Shown here: positions 5,344 to 43,929 of the stretch, one piece after another
Layout: each line of letters begins with the position of its first letter
Position numbering within the stretch: the stretch's first letter is position 1
Assembly (NCBI RefSeq): GCF_014696435.1
Contig: NZ_JACJQG010000025.1
Coordinates: 45,170-109,169, forward strand
Source: Calothrix anomala FACHB-343
GTDB lineage: Bacteria > Cyanobacteriota > Cyanobacteriia > Cyanobacteriales > Nostocaceae
Direction: 5' to 3'
DNA: 64,000 nt
Notes under the pieces: model-generated
Seen by the model: the letters and a program-made list of their open reading frames with translations, nothing else
Database searches by the model: none
What the model was told of the DNA's origin: nothing
Program-made: the position numbers and the translations under genes

Positions 5344-6177
5344 TTATTTATTTAACCGATAGCAAATAGCTTTATCAAATTGAACCCGAGTAAATGCCGA
5401 ATCTAAATGAATGGTGGTTTCAGCATTGCCGAGAAATAAGTAACCATCTGGATTTAATTTATGTTTAATTTTTTTTAATAAGTCTTTTTTTGTAGCGGTA
5501 TCAAAATAAATTAAAACATTGCGTAAAAAAATTACATCTTGTTTGGGTAATGCTATCCAAGATTCTACAAGATTAAACTGGCGAAATTCTACCATCTGTA
5601 TAATTTCGTTATGAATTTGCCAGTTATTATCTAGTTCTTGAAAATAGCGATCGCGTAAATTGCTCGGTAACCCACGCTGGATTTCTAGCTGGTTATAACA
5701 GCCTTGTTTCGCCTTGGCTAAGACTTTATGGGAAAAATCGCTGGCTATTAGCTTTAAAGACCATTTGCTCAGTATGGGAAAATATTCTTTAATCAGCATC
5801 GCTATGCTGTAGGGTTCCTGCCCGTTAGAGCAAGCTGCACACCAAATATTAAGCGATCGCTCTCTGCTTCTTTTAGCAATCAATTCTGGTAGTACATACT
5901 CTTTCAGCGCTTCAAAGGGATAGCGATCGCGAAAAAATGATGTTTCATTTGTTACCAATGACTCAACTACCTGGCTGTGCAGTTCGCTTAAAGGTTGAGT
6001 TTGTAGATAGTGAACTAATTCGCCAATTGACGTAAATCCAAGCGCTTCCGTAATTGGTTGTAAATATAGTTCTGCTAAATAGGTTTTTTCGGGTTGTAAA
6101 ACTACTGCCGATTGCTCGTAAACTAATTGACAAATATATTTAAAATCAATAGTGTTTATACTCATAGTCTGTTTCAT
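5344..6177 (-). CDS. cheR: CheR chemoreceptor glutamate methyltransferase
   Basis: Transfers methyl groups from S-adenosylmethionine to glutamates of chemoreceptors. Seen: N-terminal helical CheR domain, TNETSFFRD, then the SAM-binding segment CAACSNGQEPYSIAM and FLRNVLIYFD late in the protein, all typical. The ATG at 6177 shares one base with the cheB stop (TGATG), so translation is coupled; a GTG at 6180 is the alternative. No methyl-accepting protein, cheA or cheW is in the window, so the partner receptor array is elsewhere, or this pair serves a phototaxis or other hybrid signalling system. Confidence 0.92.
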   Translation of the reverse strand: MKQTMSINTIDFKYICQLVYEQSAVVLQPEKTYLAELYLQPITEALGFTSIGELVHYLQTQPLSELHSQVVESLVTNETSFFRDRYPFEALKEYVLPELIAKRSRERSLNIWCAACSNGQEPYSIAMLIKEYFPILSKWSLKLIASDFSHKVLAKAKQGCYNQLEIQRGLPSNLRDRYFQELDNNWQIHNEIIQMVEFRQFNLVESWIALPKQDVIFLRNVLIYFDTATKKDLLKKIKHKLNPDGYLFLGNAETTIHLDSAFTRVQFDKAICYRLNK

Positions 6178-7250
6178 CACAGACCTGAAAAAGGTACTTG
6201 ATTGTCACGAACCCGGTGGATAATTTCACCTGCTATTTGCTTGAGGGGAAGAACCTCATCGGCTAGCCCAGCATTGACAACAAAACTGGGCATTCCCCAG
6301 ACTACGCTACTAACTTTGTCCTGGGCTAGTATTTGTCCGCCAGCTTCCCGGATAGCTTTACAGCCATGTAAGCCATCTTGTCCCATACCTGTGAGAATAA
6401 CAGCGATCGCTCTTTGACTGTAAACTTCGGCTACAGACTTAAATAGTACATCTACCGAGGGACGACAAGAATTTTCTGGTGGTGCTTGATTAATTCCCAG
6501 GCGCACTACATCATTTTGACGCTGTACCACCATGTGAAAATCTCCTGGCGCAATCCAAGCTTGCCCAGGCTTGATTTCAGCACCAGCAACGGCTTCATCA
6601 ACATGAATTTGGCATTGAGAATTTAATCTTTCTGCTAATAATTTGGTAAACATTGGTGGCATGTGTTGCACAATCAAAATCGGAACCCGGAAATCGGCTG
6701 GAAGTGCGGGAAGTATTTGGGCGAGAGCATTCGGCCCGCCTGTTGACACCCCAATTGCCACAACATCTACCTGTTCTTTACCCTTGGGGACAGCAGGAAA
6801 AAGCGAATTAGTAATTGTAGTTTGTAAGGGAAATAAACTATTTCCCAAAGCGAATAACTTAATTTTAGGAATTAATTCCTCGATAATATGTTGGTTACTA
6901 GCCTCCACACTTCCTAGATTACTAGGTTTTGTCGCATAATCAGAAGCACCTAAAGAAAGAGCTTCGATAGTAGCGATCGCTCCTGTATAGGTAGAGGTGC
7001 TAAACATAATCACAGGTAGCTTGGGATACTTTTGTTTGATAGCTGTCAAAGTTTGTAAACCATCCATCTCTGGCATTTCTACATCCAAAACAATCACATC
7101 AGGATGAAGGTGGGGTATTTTTGCCAAAGCAATACCCCCATGAGCAGCCACGCCCACTACCTCTAATTCTGGATCGCTGGCTAAAATTTTACTGACGCGA
7201 CTGCGAACTACCACAGCATCATCAACTATGAGTACCCGGATTTTTAGCAT
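6177..7250 (-). CDS. cheB: CheB protein-glutamate methylesterase/response regulator
   Basis: N-terminal receiver domain with the acidic pair DD and phospho-acceptor Asp in VLDVEMPEMDG, linker, then the methylesterase with catalytic Ser in GVSTGGPNAL, His in VQHMPP and Asp in TGMGQDG. It removes methyl groups from chemoreceptor glutamates when phosphorylated. I chose the ATG at 7250 (MLKIRVLIVDD), where the receiver domain begins naturally; a TTG at 7265 would add five residues. It is translationally coupled to cheR downstream. No histidine kinase adjoins. Confidence 0.92.
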   Translation of the reverse strand: MLKIRVLIVDDAVVVRSRVSKILASDPELEVVGVAAHGGIALAKIPHLHPDVIVLDVEMPEMDGLQTLTAIKQKYPKLPVIMFSTSTYTGAIATIEALSLGASDYATKPSNLGSVEASNQHIIEELIPKIKLFALGNSLFPLQTTITNSLFPAVPKGKEQVDVVAIGVSTGGPNALAQILPALPADFRVPILIVQHMPPMFTKLLAERLNSQCQIHVDEAVAGAEIKPGQAWIAPGDFHMVVQRQNDVVRLGINQAPPENSCRPSVDVLFKSVAEVYSQRAIAVILTGMGQDGLHGCKAIREAGGQILAQDKVSSVVWGMPSFVVNAGLADEVLPLKQIAGEIIHRVRDNQVPFSGL

Positions 7251-37201: not shown

Positions 37202-37789
37202 TCAAATCTTGCGCTGTAACCAAGCAAAAACATCATCAACAGAGAGTGTCAAATTCAAATCTGTTAATACTGGTAATATATCTTTACCTGTTAACAAATC
37301 CGGCAAAGAATTAGGCTGATAAACTAAAATGCAGCGCTCGCTTGGGTCAATCAACCATCCTAGCTGACTGCCATTTCGCAAACAATGTAAAATATTGCCA
37401 GTGACTTTAGTTTGACTTTGAGCAGGCGAAAGAATTTCTATTACCCAAGCAGGTGCAAAATCAATCCCACTGCTGATAATTTCACCATTTTCATCTAGTG
37501 GTAGGTGATTGCTAGAAATTACAACCACATCAGGAACTACTGAACGATTACCAAAGGTACAACGCAATTCTGGAAAAGCTTCATAGTTACTGTCTAAACT
37601 ATCAATTACAGAAACTAAACGTTTTTGCAATAAACTATGTTTAGCACCGCCCATAGGTTTTTGAATCGCTTCTCCGTTAATATATTCCCAAGCTGGTGAC
37701 TCTTCAATGTAGGGAAGTTTTAAGAACTCCTCAAGAGTCGTGCTTTCTTTGACGATAATTTTTCCTTGTGTCAACTCAATATTCGTCAT
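37202..37789 (-). CDS. Uma2-family putative restriction endonuclease
   Basis: 195 residues, intact. The PD-(D/E)XK-like fold core is recognisable in VVPDVVVISS and PAWVIEILSP, followed by LGWLIDP, the typical Uma2 order. The family is greatly expanded in filamentous cyanobacteria and is thought to be nuclease-like, but its role is not proven. It opens an accessory island that holds a second, gutted Uma2 copy and toxin-antitoxin remnants. Confidence 0.87.
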   Translation of the reverse strand: MTNIELTQGKIIVKESTTLEEFLKLPYIEESPAWEYINGEAIQKPMGGAKHSLLQKRLVSVIDSLDSNYEAFPELRCTFGNRSVVPDVVVISSNHLPLDENGEIISSGIDFAPAWVIEILSPAQSQTKVTGNILHCLRNGSQLGWLIDPSERCILVYQPNSLPDLLTGKDILPVLTDLNLTLSVDDVFAWLQRKI

Positions 37790-37917: not shown

Positions 37918-38121
37918 ATGAAAATAAAAGCAATTATTCATCCTGCAGAAGAAGGTGGTTATTGGGCTGAAGTTCCAGCGCTACCCGGTTGTATTACTGA
38001 GGGTGAAACGATGGAAGAGGTATTAGTTAATCTAAAAGATGCAATTGAAGGATGGTTGGAAGTTGCAAATAGTAGTCACCAAGTAGAATCAAATGCTCAA
38101 ATTGTTGAGATTGCGGTATGA
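37918..38121 (+). CDS. hicB: HicB-type antitoxin
   Basis: 67 residues with the HicB core: IIHPAEEGGYWAEVPALPGC, then TEGETMEEVLVNLKDAIEGW. In the family this partly degraded RNase-H-like fold binds and neutralises the HicA mRNA interferase; this short form has no DNA-binding tail. It stands with a wrecked hicA, so the antitoxin is orphaned. Its stop TGA overlaps the ATG of the remnant. Confidence 0.88.
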   Translation: MKIKAIIHPAEEGGYWAEVPALPGCITEGETMEEVLVNLKDAIEGWLEVANSSHQVESNAQIVEIAV

Positions 38122-38197: not shown

Positions 38198-38374
38198 TTA
38201 TTTGGAACTCTGTCTCACCCAATTACGAAAAGCTTTAATCGTGGCATAAGCAATTCGCGCTGCACGATGCTCACCTAATTCTTCAATAATTGTTTCTAGT
38301 TCTTGCCAAGTGACATCTTGCAATAATACTTTTTGTCCTGGTGGTAGATAGATACGCTTGAACTCAAATAACAT
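38198..38374 (-). pseudogene. Uma2-family remnant with internal deletion
   Basis: 58 codons from an ATG at 38374. The N-terminal half (LPPGQKVLLQDVTWQELE, ELGEHRAARIAY) is the start of a Uma2 protein normally ~200 residues long. It jumps to IKAFRNWVRQSSK, which looks like the usual C-terminal end. The nuclease core is absent. The frame remains open, so it could still be translated as a short peptide. It begins two bases from the hicA remnant. Confidence 0.72.
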
Positions 38375-38441: not shown

Positions 38442-39215
38442 TCACACAATTAGTTCGGGACTGATGTTCTTCTCAACATAAGCAATACCTTTAGGCAGAA
38501 GTACACAAAAACCATTTTCATGATGTATGAGAGCTTCGTCATCTAATGATTTTAATATTTCTTTTCGATATCTACTTACATTGGCATATTTAATCCATTT
38601 TATTAAATCTGTATCGCTGACTTTATCTGGCTGCTTGTAGTATAGAATAAGTAAAGTTTTTTGATCCGTTTTCAGTTTAGTGTTCTGCACTCTTATAAAG
38701 CTGCCAACTTCTACTATAACGGGCATTTTTGTCTCGTTGATACTTTCAACAATTTTTCTTGCTTCATCAATGCTGTTGATATGATAGTTGCGTATTAGTT
38801 CAACTAATATCCAATCGGCTGACTGTGATACAAATAACGAATCAGAGTAGTTTGGGTTTACTTCTCCACCAACATGAGCAACATTTCTCTTGTTTCTAAT
38901 ATCAAGAAGCACCCTTGTAAGCTGAGGAATAAAAAAGCGAATACCTTCTGGTAAGCTTGTATTGCTAGTAACACGATTTATGATTTTTTGAGTATCTAGT
39001 TGCTTGCCAAACGGAGTATAATTGCCTGTGTCTAAGAACTCAATTAAACGTAGGATACACTCACTGAAACGAGCAGCATTTAATTCGGCTGGCTGAAATT
39101 TTCTGAGAAAAAACTGTTGCTTGATATGTTGATATTCTTCAATCAAAGCAATAACGATATCTTTAGGTAGCTTTGTAGACAAAGCTGCTTCAATTTGGGA
39201 TCTTAGAACACTCAT
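38442..39215 (-). CDS. Protein with HEPN-like RNxxxxxH motif (effector candidate)
   Basis: 257 residues from the ATG at 39215; a GTG at 39254 would overlap the upstream gene by 13 bp. All-helical N-terminal part with LLDIRNKRNVAHVGGEVNP (Arg107, Asn108, His114). Arg-(4-6 residues)-His is the active site of HEPN ribonucleases, many of which are toxins or defence effectors. The C-terminal ~80 residues read as a winged helix (TDLIKWIKYANVSRYRKEIL). It is the downstream partner of the zinc-ribbon gene. I do not recognise it by name; the HEPN link rests on the motif only. Confidence 0.6.
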   Translation of the reverse strand: MSVLRSQIEAALSTKLPKDIVIALIEEYQHIKQQFFLRKFQPAELNAARFSECILRLIEFLDTGNYTPFGKQLDTQKIINRVTSNTSLPEGIRFFIPQLTRVLLDIRNKRNVAHVGGEVNPNYSDSLFVSQSADWILVELIRNYHINSIDEARKIVESINETKMPVIVEVGSFIRVQNTKLKTDQKTLLILYYKQPDKVSDTDLIKWIKYANVSRYRKEILKSLDDEALIHHENGFCVLLPKGIAYVEKNISPELIV

Positions 39216-39241
39216 GATTAGTCTTAATTTCCAAAAATACT

Positions 39242-40408
39242 CTAAATAAGCCACCCCTCCACAAAGCTTTCAGCATCAGGTGTAAGATAATATAAACCTT
39301 CAGAGGTTCGACTGAAATATTTACTGTAGTCTTTGGTGTTAGTCAAAGCTTTTGAAAAATTGCTTTGACTAACAGAAACTGTTTTATATTTCTTAACTAG
39401 GTAGTCGTATGCTAATCCTGGTTTCACAGCATCTTGAGCTTTCAACTCTTTGGTAATATCGTATAAAGCAAGAAGAGCATATTCAACAGCAGTATTTAGC
39501 TTTCTCACATCAAAGCTGTCAAACCTCGATGTCATTTGAATCCACTGCTCAATGTTTTGAGTATCCTCTTTTGTTTTACGAGAACCTTTACTCGAATTTT
39601 TGCGGCTTGAACTCCAATATTCATTACCTTTTAAGTCTGAATCTTGCATTTCTGCAATAATTTTCTTGACTTCAGCCTGTCCACCAGGATTAAGTTTAAA
39701 AGTTCCATCAGACTTTACGAAATAGCGGCTTGCCAGATCATTCAAGTAACTTGTGTAATTTTTATCGTAAATACCATTCACTTTAGCAGCTTGATTTAGA
39801 TAGTCTTTTAAGACTGGTTCGTGGCAAAGTATATTGTAAGCCCAAACATAAAGCAGGCTAAATCTCTGTTGTTGAAGCTTTTTATTTTTACCTTTATAAT
39901 CAGGAGTCTTTGAAACTAGAACACCTTGTCCATCTATTTCAAAATAGTTGGCAGGTGTGTTAGTTTCTGGGGAACTTTGAACAGTAGTATTAATTGTCTG
40001 TTCTTTGGTATCTTCATATCTGTTTAGATCAACTTCTTCTTCTAATTGCTGAAAAGGAGGTAAGATTGCTTGCTGTTCCAGAACTGAAGCAGGCTTCGTA
40101 ACTTTAAGAGGAGTTAAGGGAACATAACCACCAAGAACAGATGCAACCTTATCAATTGCAGTATCAGTGAAAGATAGATTCAGCTTCCTTGAATAATTTT
40201 TGTCTGACTGTTCCTCTTCAAGAGAGAAATTATTCATAGGAGTAGAATGAAGCTTAGGAGTGTCAATTAAGGTGCCACACTTGAGGCATTTGCTCTTATC
40301 TTTAAGTAAATGTTTGCTGCACTTTAGACACTTCACTTGCCGTTCACAGCTAAGGCAAAAGCTATATTCCTCATCAATTTGAGTGTCACAATATGGGCAG
40401 TTTGACAC
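39242..40408 (-). CDS. Double zinc-ribbon protein (sensor/regulator candidate)
   Basis: 388 residues. GTG start behind AGGAAGAG, well supported. Two zinc ribbons at the N-terminus (Cys4, 7, 18, 21 and Cys27, 30, 41, 44), a ~110-residue low-complexity linker, then a helical region (YVWAYNILCHEPVLKDYL), a Ser/Lys-rich stretch (RKNSSKGSRKTKED) and a C-terminal helical/winged-helix-like part. No known name. It is followed 26 bp later by the HEPN-like gene, so the two form an operon. It may sense nucleic acid and control the partner. Confidence 0.6.
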   Translation of the reverse strand: MSNCPYCDTQIDEEYSFCLSCERQVKCLKCSKHLLKDKSKCLKCGTLIDTPKLHSTPMNNFSLEEEQSDKNYSRKLNLSFTDTAIDKVASVLGGYVPLTPLKVTKPASVLEQQAILPPFQQLEEEVDLNRYEDTKEQTINTTVQSSPETNTPANYFEIDGQGVLVSKTPDYKGKNKKLQQQRFSLLYVWAYNILCHEPVLKDYLNQAAKVNGIYDKNYTSYLNDLASRYFVKSDGTFKLNPGGQAEVKKIIAEMQDSDLKGNEYWSSSRKNSSKGSRKTKEDTQNIEQWIQMTSRFDSFDVRKLNTAVEYALLALYDITKELKAQDAVKPGLAYDYLVKKYKTVSVSQSNFSKALTNTKDYSKYFSRTSEGLYYLTPDAESFVEGWLI

Positions 40409-40521
40409 AGTTTGCTCTTCCTAATATTTGTTCAAATACTTGACTTGTTAGTATAACCGAGAGGTACTTTTTTTACAACGTTTATATATGTGGGCAAGCT
40501 CACCTCATATGACAAAAATAA

Positions 40522-40543
40522 AAAGCCCGCATTTGCGGGCTTT
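40522..40543. terminator. Bidirectional terminator beside typA
   Basis: Perfect hairpin AAAGCCCGCA / TGCGGGCTTT with a TT-centred loop, followed on the minus strand by TTTTTATTTT. It ends typA; the zinc-ribbon gene starts on the far side. Confidence 0.9.
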
Positions 40544-40566
40544 CAACATCAATTCAGCAGATTGAT

Positions 40567-42357
40567 TTATCGTTTTACTAACTTCTTCGACATCTTGCGC
40601 AAGCGAATCGATTGAGGTGTAACTTCTACCAATTCATCTGGGCCGATATACTCTAAAGCACGTTCCAAACTCATATCTACTGGTGCTTGTAACTGCACTA
40701 ATTCATCACCACCAGCAGCACGGTGGTTGGTAAGCTGCTTGGTTTTACAGATATTCAGTTCTAAGTCTTGAGGACGATTGTGTTCTCCCACAATCATACC
40801 TTTATAAACTTTAGTACCAGGAGTAATGAAGAATACACCTCTATCTTCAGCGTTTCTCATCGCATAGAAGGTAGATACACCTTCTTCAAAGGAGATGAGA
40901 ACGCCTTTGTTACGGGCTTCAATATCGCCAGAAAGCTGACGGTAATCTAAGAAGCTGTGGTTCATGATACCTTCGCCACGGGTCATCCGCATGAATTCGC
41001 CACGGAAACCAATCAAACCACGGGCGGGGATAACAAACTCTAGCTGGGTGCGTTCGTTACTACCGGGTTGCATATCTTGCATTTCACCCTTGCGTTGTCC
41101 CAAGCGTTCGATACAGCTACCAACTGCGTCTGCGGGGACATCAAGAACCAAAAGTTCATAAGGTTCACAAGGTTGTCCGTTGACTTCCCGGTAAATTACC
41201 TGTGGCTGAGATACTTGAAACTCATAGCCTTCTCGGCGCATGGTTTCAATTAAAATACCCAGGTGGAGTTCTCCACGACCAGACACGAGGAATTTATCAG
41301 GAGAATCGGTTTCTTCAACACGCAAAGCTACGTTAGTTTCTAATTCTCGCAGCAAGCGATCGCGTACTTGGCGCGATGTTACCAATTTACCTTCTTGACC
41401 TGCAAATGGTGAATCATTCACCCAGAAGGTCATCTGTAAGGTAGGTTCATCTACCTTAATTAGTGGTAAAGCTTGAGGTTCATTAGGATCTGTAATTGTT
41501 TCCCCAATATTGGCATCAGCAAAACCAGCCACAGCCACAATATAACCTGCGGATGCTTCTTCCATATCCACCCGCTTCAAGCCTTCAAAGCCCATCAACT
41601 TGGTGATTTTGGCCTTGACAATTGCACCACTTTCTGTTACTAAAGCTGCTTGCTGTCCAGCGCGAATCACACCGTTGTGAATTCTGCCAATAACAATCCG
41701 TCCTAGATATTCAGAATAATCTAGGGTTGTGACTTGCAATTGCAGAGGCTTGTTAACATCACCTACTGGGGGTGGTACATGGCGGAGGATAGCTTCAAAG
41801 AGTGGTTGCATATCCACTGGTTCTGCATCCAAGTCGTCTTTGGCATAACCAGCCAAGCCAGAAGCGAATAAATAGGGGAAATCGCACTGATCTTCATCTG
41901 CGCCTAATTCTAGGAACAGATCTAATACTTTATCAATTGCGCCGTAGGGGTCAGCTTGGGGACGGTCAATCTTATTGACAACAACAATGGGGCGTAGTCC
42001 TTTTTCTAAAGCCTTTTTCAACACAAAGCGTGTTTGCGGCATCGGGCCTTCATTGGCATCGACAATCAGGATACAACCATCAACCATGCCAAGTACACGT
42101 TCGACTTCACCGCCGAAGTCAGCGTGACCTGGGGTATCAACAATATTGATTAAGGTTTCTTTGTAACGAACTGCTGTATTTTTCGAGAGGATGGTAATTC
42201 CCCGTTCCCGTTCCAAGGCGTTGGAATCCATGACGCAATCCGGAACGTCTTCACCTTCTCGGAAGATGCCGGATTGTTTGAGGAGTGCATCAACCAGGGT
42301 GGTTTTGCCGTGGTCTACGTGGGCAATAATGGCGACGTTACGAATTGGGAGCGTCAT
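40567..42357 (-). CDS. typA: Translational GTPase TypA/BipA
   Basis: 596 residues. Elongation-factor-like GTPase acting on ribosomes under stress. GTPase motifs: [12 protein letters not shown] (G1), ERGITI (G2), DTPGHADFG (G3), NKID (G4). These are followed by domains II, III, V and the C-terminal domain specific to BipA. The start [19 protein letters not shown] is usual. It lies next to the island and is bounded by a strong terminator. Confidence 0.95.
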
Positions 42358-42764: not shown

Positions 42765-43038
42765 CAACAAACTCCATCAAGGTAAAAACTCGCAAAGCGA
42801 TATTTAACAAAAACATCAAGCCAGTGATTCGGTTTTGATTCTGGAAGTAAATCGGTAAGGCAGGTAAAGAACCTCAGGCTAAGGCATTGAAATTCCTGGA
42901 GTATTGGACGGAAGAAAGAAACAGATTGAAGAAGAAGAAAGATCCACAATCTCAACAACTCCAGTTGGCAATGAAGGTTTTGATTTCCATTGATGAATGT
43001 GCTTCACTAAAACCTGTGTACTCAAGGAGAATCAAAAT
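42765..43038. other. Degenerate sequence between kinase remnant and RTX gene
   Basis: No intact frame. A 42887-43140 frame (KFLEYWTEERNRLKKKKD) and a minus-strand frame are not recognisable as proteins. This looks like decayed coding DNA. Confidence 0.4.
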
Positions 43039-43929
43039 ATGGCTATTATCAATGGCGATAACAATGCTAACACGCTCACTGGTACTAATAGTGCTGATGC
43101 TATCAAAGGCTTGGGTGGTGATGACACTATCTACGGTTTAGGTGGTAATGATAGCCTTGATGGTAATGATGGTAACGATAGAATTTACGGTGGCGATGGT
43201 GCTGACATAGTACGCGCTGGTAATGGTAACGATTACATAGACCTAGGCAGAGCTCAATTAATCACAGGTAACGAGTATAATCTTGTCGATGCTGGTGATG
43301 GTGATGATACAGTTATTGGTGGTCAAGATACTGATAGGATTTACTTATACTCTGGTGCAGACTCAGCTAATGGTGGGGATGGTAGAGATTATATATTCGG
43401 TGGTATAGGTAATGATACTATCCGTGGTGGTGGAGGTAATGATGACCTTTATGGAGAAGAAGGTAATGATACCCTCTATGGAGACAATGGCGACGACCTC
43501 CTTATTGGTGGTTTAAATAGTGATAGCGTTTATGGTGGTGCGGGTTATGACCTTATACGTGCAGCCTCTAAGATTACCTATTCTGATTTCTCTTATGAGA
43601 GTAGGAATACTGTAGATAATCTTTGGGGTGGAACTGAAGGTGATACATTCAGCTTTGGTTATCGTGTAACGTACAACGGTGTGCTTCGTACGATACAGGA
43701 TTATCAAGGTGGAGGTAATGCGGACTATGCTATTATTCGTGACTTTCAGGGTGGTTATGGGTATGACCGTATTCAACTAGCTGGTAGTCCAAGTGAATAC
43801 TCGCTTGACCGTATGACGCTTAATGGAGTTGAAGGAACGGGAATACGTTTTGGTACAGACTTAGTTGCCCTAGTAAAGGATAAGTTCGATCTTAGTCTGA
43901 CTAACTCCAATCAATTTATTTATTTCTAG
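43039..43929 (+). CDS. RTX-type calcium-binding repeat protein
   Basis: 296 residues from the ATG at 43039, which follows a GGAGAA site. About ten glycine-rich nonapeptides of the GGxGxDxLx type (GGDDTIYGLGGNDSLDG; GGGGNDDLYGEEGNDTLYG) form a calcium-binding beta-roll, interrupted by a 30-residue insert (~75-105). The last ~110 residues (YSDFSYESRNTVDNLWGG to the end) are a globular cap. It should be secreted by a type I exporter, but no exporter is adjacent. Nucleotide repeats make it prone to rearrangement. Confidence 0.85.
   Translation: MAIINGDNNANTLTGTNSADAIKGLGGDDTIYGLGGNDSLDGNDGNDRIYGGDGADIVRAGNGNDYIDLGRAQLITGNEYNLVDAGDGDDTVIGGQDTDRIYLYSGADSANGGDGRDYIFGGIGNDTIRGGGGNDDLYGEEGNDTLYGDNGDDLLIGGLNSDSVYGGAGYDLIRAASKITYSDFSYESRNTVDNLWGGTEGDTFSFGYRVTYNGVLRTIQDYQGGGNADYAIIRDFQGGYGYDRIQLAGSPSEYSLDRMTLNGVEGTGIRFGTDLVALVKDKFDLSLTNSNQFIYF

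Follow-up and report, generated by a model that had tools for sequence, protein, structure and literature searches.

A predicted HEPN ribonuclease and its zinc-ribbon/winged-helix partner form a candidate two-gene conflict module in Calothrix anomala FACHB-343

Ribonucleases (RNases) of the HEPN superfamily are described, in the available text of PMC3710099, as all-helical domains with an R-[N/S]-x5-H motif, a conserved upstream acidic residue and an association with conflict systems. The general motif given there is Rx4-6H, with a spacer of six residues in some families and a polar residue after the arginine, and the upstream acidic residue, found in many families, typically forms part of Ex3[KR]. 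A gene that resembles these RNases in motif, in upstream acidic residue and, at modest scores, in predicted fold was found in the cyanobacterium Calothrix anomala FACHB-343, in a window of 64,000 nucleotides (contig NZ_JACJQG010000025.1 of assembly GCF_014696435.1, positions 45,170 to 109,169) that was analysed as a whole. This gene B follows a gene A coding for a multi-domain protein, and in our judgement the two genes probably form a mobile conflict module of abortive-infection type. The families in the available part of PMC3710099 do not recognisably include gene B, and the pair differs from them by the C-terminal winged helix of gene B and by its dedicated upstream zinc-ribbon/winged-helix partner.

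Other described systems share part of this design. The tail-activated HEPN anti-phage system (Tha) of Staphylococcus aureus prophages possesses a C-terminal HEPN domain with R-x4-H and an antisense inhibitor gene, ith (PMC11087260, in the text available), whereas the HEPN domain of gene B is N-terminal, carries R-x6-H and comes with an upstream, co-directional, multi-domain partner. In HEPN-MNT (HepT/MntA) the partner is a nucleotidyltransferase, for which neither gene A nor any of five distant partners that were scanned gave a Pfam match. CnuE of the CoCoNuT systems also combines a winged helix and a HEPN domain in one effector beside a sensor module, in a system that contains zinc ribbons, but its elongated winged helix-turn-helix domain precedes the HEPN domain and it works with a helicase and an McrB-like GTPase (PMC11090510, accessible part). 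Beside the pair in the window and among the neighbours listed, no McrB or McrB-like GTPase, helicase, PglZ or cas gene was seen by eye, no profile scan of all neighbours having been run. DS-11 of DefensePredictor likewise couples a HEPN effector to a sensory part, but does so in a single protein with CBS domains; four HEPN systems are reported in the accessible portion of that paper (PMC13092281), and it is possible that the pair overlaps with one of the three others. Searches of open-access papers brought up no description of the pair, subscription journals and supplements being outside the scope. The HEPN family and the combination of effector and partner appear to be new, although the kind, HEPN-based conflict systems, is known.

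Both open reading frames (ORFs) lie where a sequence-only reading of this DNA had placed them, namely on the minus strand and separated by 26 base pairs (bp; 39216-39241):

39242 to 40408, minus strand: gene A, partner/sensor-like protein of 388 amino acids (ORF, orthologues and substitution rates)
38442 to 39215, minus strand: gene B, predicted HEPN RNase with a C-terminal winged-helix-like part, 257 amino acids, starting with ATG at 39215 and located 3' of gene A (ORF, alignment and fold model)

The GTG start of gene A coincides with a methionine at the same residue in its orthologues. The ratio of nonsynonymous to synonymous substitution rates (dN/dS) lay at 0.04-0.14 in six close orthologues of gene B and at 0.10-0.27 in five of gene A, and the R-x6-H motif persists in gene B relatives of 15-34% identity, so that both ORFs look like selected genes beyond chance. 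The order typA-A-B was also retrieved in Fortiea sp. (L002) and Nostoc carneum (L003).

The predicted catalytic function of gene B would be carried by a conserved motif in an N-terminal helical domain:

38874 to 38897, minus strand: predicted active-site motif R107-N-K-R110-N-V-A-H114 (R-x6-H), within the stretch LLDIRNKRNVAHVGG
38727 to 39182, minus strand: HEPN-like helical domain, about residues 12-163 (AF2 model, VIA-align to HEPN structures)
38466 to 38720, minus strand: beta-hairpin and winged-helix-like C-terminal part, about residues 166-250 (secondary structure of the model, at low predicted local distance difference test (pLDDT) values)

The RN...H motif of the sequence-only reading, with its numbering of R107 and H114, holds across an alignment of the window protein with 22 relatives (15-89% identity), which leaves out L003 (near-identical group), the interrupted genes of L050/L018 and L058, and chance matches. 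E52, R107, R110, D125, W135, E139 and R142 are invariant in all 23 sequences, N or S directly follows R107 in 23/23 (R-[N/S]-x5-H), and H114 is kept in 22 of the 23, the exception being L059, a doubtful family member in which the histidine lies one residue earlier. A lysine or arginine four residues after E52, giving Ex3[KR], occurs in 16/23. The family fits the HEPN signature by its R-x6-H motif, the polar residue after the arginine and the upstream E52. Three further loci (L007, L011 and L041) were regarded as chance or partial matches and rejected; the genome of L007, searched with the family profile, gave no match. Neither gene B nor its relatives had a meaningful match among the Pfam, NCBIfam or PADLOC families, and one relative had a sub-threshold Abi_C match at the expected place (E 0.19). 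A profile search of the PDB sequences returned no significant match for gene B or gene A. Given the lack of a library match, gene B is taken to represent a new family of the HEPN superfamily and not one of those listed.

Prediction of gene B from its single sequence was useless (pLDDT 37) and was discarded. An AlphaFold model from seven sequences was closest to solved HEPN domains by VIA-align, and the structure check proposed with the sequence-only reading thus came out HEPN-like, at modest scores. Block mean pLDDT values were 67-94 over residues 11-110 and 74-89 over residues 121-160, with a drop to 38 in between (residues 111-120), where H114 lies. A fold search of BFVD yielded no useful match. 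The HEPN-like effector foreseen from the sequence is hence supported by the conservation of the motif and, more modestly, by the comparison of predicted folds.

Gene A starts with eight cysteines (C4/C7/C18/C21 and C27/C30/C41/C44) that are read as two zinc ribbons, followed by a short strand-helix stretch and a linker (by eye) and then by two winged-helix-like modules:

40277 to 40399, minus strand: two zinc ribbons, residues 4-44 (sub-threshold Pfam Zn_Ribbon_1 and DZR)
39644 to 39883, minus strand: winged-helix-like module 1, about residues 176-255 (hhalign; borders chosen by us)
39245 to 39514, minus strand: winged-helix-like module 2, about residues 299-388 (hhalign; borders chosen by us)

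The zinc ribbons, predicted earlier, are confirmed by these cysteines and by Pfam matches just under the cut-offs (Zn_Ribbon_1, E 2.6e-4, two stretches; DZR, 4.6e-4). C4, C7, C41 and C44 are invariant in seven partners of the zinc-ribbon type, and L004 has no middle cysteines. The winged-helix-like part noticed in the sequence is supported by profile comparison, as are the corresponding parts of the partners: the C-terminal parts of distant partners were matched by module 1 with Prob 94.6 (E 7.1e-8) and more weakly by module 2 (Prob 64.5, E 6.3e-5), the two modules matching each other with Prob 45.5. The winged helix of gene B matched those of the distant partners weakly (Prob 44.7, E 2.3e-4) and the two gene A modules with Prob 11.2 and 10.5, and the gene A modules and the gene B winged helix are therefore not claimed as one family. 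As a negative comparison, the HEPN domain gave Prob 0.1-0.4.

The two genes stay together far beyond close relatives, in Cyanobacteria and Chloroflexota, so that the co-occurrence check proposed with the sequence-only reading came out in favour of it. In 24 of 25 loci, gene B is adjoined upstream by a same-strand ORF of at least 60 amino acids, whose end reaches at most 122 bp into the gene B ORF or stops at most 43 bp short of it; in the remaining locus, a Natronomonas plasmid (L012), the sole candidate was an ORF of 69 amino acids, which was not counted. These loci are not independent, as nine of them, including the window, are close orthologues. Since adjacency by itself accepts any ORF, a leave-one-out test was added, in which a profile of partner C-termini without the tested locus was compared with all 20-110 ORFs of that locus; for the nine close orthologues the whole group was removed from the profile, and likewise for the group of L048/L049/L058. 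The partners of L012, L052 and L053 were outside the C-terminal alignment and the training sets, their loci being tested nonetheless. An upstream partner ORF took the first rank in 22 of the 25 loci, with E<0.01 in 18 and with E 0.015-0.19 in four (L006, L049, L052 and L058). In L005 and L043, where gene A is split, the top ORF was its first half; in L051 and L053 it was a second partner-type gene, one further upstream. The latter two loci hold two consecutive partner-type genes before gene B, which looks like a duplication of the sensor. An additional distant pair (L101) overlaps by 4 nucleotides, and gene B is interrupted in L050 and in L058, in the latter by a transposase-like ORF. By eye, the partners start with zinc ribbons in the window group, L049, L052, L058 and L101, with a beta-rich 'ELEGSE' head in L045, L050 and L060, and with helical heads in L047, L051, L053, L055 and L057. 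The pairing is old, as judged from its presence in Cyanobacteria and Chloroflexota, the partners apparently having a winged-helix tail in common and differing in their N terminus.

That gene A would normally work without gene B was rejected by a reverse profile search of 271 genomes of the class. The profile of the zinc-ribbon type matched in 15 of them, eight times confined to residues 1-99 in other ORFs; five of the remaining seven genomes carry gene B, and the other two (G809 and G821, whose inclusion in the gene B class sample is presumed) contain a truncated gene A beside transposase-like ORFs (by eye). In G864, gene A is split across two contigs. Among plasmids, the sole record was PL131 of Natronomonas pharaonis (L012), with a gene B homologue of 28% identity; the plasmid searches gave no other record, one of them being without any match. 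No upstream partner of this homologue was found. An ORF of 82 amino acids (5949-6197) follows it and resembles, by eye, the beta-rich partner head of L045 and L060, which suggests a possible reversal of the gene order in archaea.

The distribution of gene B is patchy. It was present in 5/386 genomes sampled across the phylum, in one case as a fragment with stops, in 7/388 of the class and in 7/301 Chloroflexota (12/400 with a wider profile), that is approximately 1-3% of the sampled genomes, counts that include weak matches and come from overlapping draws. Effectively none was found in 198 Bacteroidota genomes, where one match of 32 residues with a stop was not counted. Within the genus, three of nine genomes contained gene B, one as a merely 22% identical homologue. 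The pair occupies a variable site, bordered as follows:

40567 to 42357, minus strand: upstream border of the site, fixed, which we take to be typA/BipA
40521 to 40544, minus strand: terminator-like hairpin 3' of typA, between typA and the pair (sequence scan)
40450 to 40478, minus strand: promoter-like site TTGTAA-17-TATACT, 5' of gene A (consensus match only)
38198 to 38374, minus strand: Uma2 relic, downstream border of the site (blastn against the intact copy of G1233)
37918 to 38121, plus strand: HicB-like/UPF0150 antitoxin-like ORF, 67 amino acids (Pfam)
37202 to 37789, minus strand: intact Uma2 putative endonuclease (Pfam PF05685, E 2.8e-28)

The hairpin and the promoter-like site may fit an independent unit, promoter matches here not exceeding chance (6 versus a mean of 7.7 in shuffles). 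The pair as part of a typA operon was rejected, in view of the hairpin and of relatives with other genes in that place. The gene typA was found in all 20 relatives, the window genome included, and the stretch after it was compared in 12 of the other 19. A Uma2 gene of 213-214 amino acids, recognised by sequence and with Pfam on one, follows in 7/12, and the remaining five show other arrangements. The interval between typA and Uma2 has no ORF of at least 60 amino acids in G1233, G1237 and G1236, of which G1233 is the closest relative by typA, its TypA being 100% identical to that of the window. Its 213-aa Uma2 copy matches Pfam Uma2 (E 6e-16); against it, the relic of the window, left as a short ORF, shows an internal deletion of approximately 460 bp (blastn), and a Pfam scan of the relic itself gave no match. 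G1240 contains the pair in the same interval, and G1237, empty there, has the distant pair L101 elsewhere. Alternative cargo was identified in other congeners (L094, L096 and L098): G1234 has an OLD/Gabija-like AAA ATPase of 896 aa with an OLD-like TOPRIM domain (PADLOC: AriA 4e-20, Old 3e-15, GajA 2e-14) and a 94-aa ORF, G1235 has small ORFs that look BrnT-like by eye together with a caspase protein (PADLOC E 2e-33), and G1238 has BrnT (Pfam E 2.7e-12). This patchy, mobile occurrence at an exchangeable site is a feature of anti-phage systems, and the interval is possibly a defence hotspot of the genus. In addition, synonymous divergence between the window and the congener was lower for the pair (0.38 and 0.41) than for typA (0.74), prs (0.67) and Uma2 (0.62), with bootstrap ranges apart from typA and overlapping prs and Uma2, which may hint at transfer. 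The placement between nuclease and toxin-antitoxin relics, as first proposed, holds downstream, with the Uma2 relic, the HicB-like ORF and the intact Uma2 gene, but not upstream, where the neighbour is the housekeeping gene typA. No HicA was noticed beside the HicB-like ORF, a dedicated search not having been made, and G1233 has a similar ORF. Genes such as psbA and typA, recognised by eye, mark the window as cyanobacterial, and a 310-aa protein with glycine/aspartate-rich repeats (42997-43929, plus strand) looks RTX-like by eye.

A link with phages is provided by the viral contig L060. It encodes a beta-head partner and a gene B that has the R-x6-H motif, in the vicinity of genes for an endolysin, a tail protein, a DNA methyltransferase, a UmuD-like protein and a protein of the PDC-M04A type. 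L060 was the sole contig matched in the viral scans, half of the completed ones being without a match, and three queries of 50,697 phage records gave none. By eye and without control, L043 was seen to have a TIR protein nearby, L027/L028 (which are the loci of L048/L049) to be followed by PDC-S02 proteins, and L026 by a PDC-S09 protein. PADLOC matched seven of ten neighbours picked by eye and not the other three; as these were hand-picked and no control neighbourhoods were included, we gave up the claim that the pair is enriched near defence genes. The defence reading is based on the patchy distribution, on the exchange site and on L060 as a phage-like carrier, and not on neighbourhood enrichment.

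According to the mechanism that we propose, gene B would be a HEPN-fold RNase with R107 and H114 as catalytic residues, helpers such as R110 and E52, and a C-terminal winged helix. Gene A would be its dedicated sensor or regulator, composed of a variable N-terminal part, here zinc ribbons, and winged-helix modules that would contact the HEPN protein, either to hold it inactive or to recruit it, up to the moment when gene A receives a signal of infection. Sensing of an infection product would license the RNase through the winged helices, upon which the HEPN protein, presumably as a dimer, would cut RNA, so that growth stops and the phage cannot finish. HEPN RNases in general need no metal for their activity and usually act as dimers. 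A sensor role agrees with the faster evolution of gene A and with the variability of its head, and the earlier idea that the first protein senses nucleic acid is one form that this role may take. As the zinc ribbons are not universal among partners, the trigger may differ between variants, if gene A senses.

Several observations weigh against such a defence module. Leave-one-out failed in L012, L059 and the phage-like L060; in the latter two, gene B itself ranked first (E 0.33 and 0.091), ahead of the partner in second place (E 2.2 and 1.5). The fold comparison gave modest scores, and the loci L044, L045, L046, L051, L052 and L053 lie mostly amid housekeeping genes. The strongest alternative, which we nevertheless hold to be unlikely, is a type II-like toxin-antitoxin pair, in which gene B would be a HEPN toxin and gene A a neutralising antitoxin and auto-repressor that binds operator DNA with its winged helices and zinc ribbons, the pair being kept by addiction and not for defence. 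The adjacency of the genes, with the regulator first and a 4-nucleotide overlap in several loci, would suit it, as would HicB-like, BrnT and other toxin-antitoxin-like neighbours and the occurrence of other HEPN toxins as toxin-antitoxin toxins (PMC11586414, as far as its text was available). Gene A is, however, large and multi-domain, which is atypical for an antitoxin, and the N-terminal part of the partner is not conserved. Moreover, in L005, L043 and L052 gene A is present as two ORFs while gene B is open, which would be harmful under a strict antitoxin role; unless due to sequencing errors, this leans against such a role.

A chromosomal stress or RNA-processing regulator pair, with gene A as a transcription-type regulator and gene B as an RNase acting on host transcripts, is improbable. 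Transcription regulators often contain winged helices and zinc ribbons, and the many loci amid housekeeping genes are as expected for such a pair and tell against the choice of defence over stress, which the sequence-only reading had left between the two. On the side of defence, patchiness, a variable insertion site, empty in the closest relative by typA, and a phage-like carrier speak for that choice, and a presence in approximately 1-3% of the sampled genomes and in 3/9 of the genus would be unusual for core regulators. Least probable is a HEPN fold without nuclease role, serving gene A as a protein-protein or nucleotide-binding scaffold, for although the motif is lost in some HEPN families (PMC3710099, available text) and the structures matched are helical bundles, at modest scores, R107 is invariant, H114 is found in all but one sequence, in which a histidine stands one residue before it, and further charged residues are invariant.

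The abortive-infection module may be of wider scope. We tentatively envisage, without considering it the likelier outcome, a 'plug-in sensor' immune system, in which a constant HEPN-winged-helix RNase effector would be combined with exchangeable partners that share a winged-helix docking module and differ in their sensing heads (zinc ribbons, beta-rich 'ELEGSE'-type or helical), in Cyanobacteria and Chloroflexota as well as in a phage-like contig and perhaps in haloarchaea, a swap of heads bringing a new trigger for the same killing. The typA-Uma2 interval offers a defined site in the genus for finding further conflict genes. If true, the abortive-infection reading would add an unnamed family of HEPN RNases and a simple two-gene immune design that is absent from the protein-family libraries searched and from the 2023 defence catalogue, and the constant effector with its variable head would allow the activation of HEPN RNases to be studied directly.
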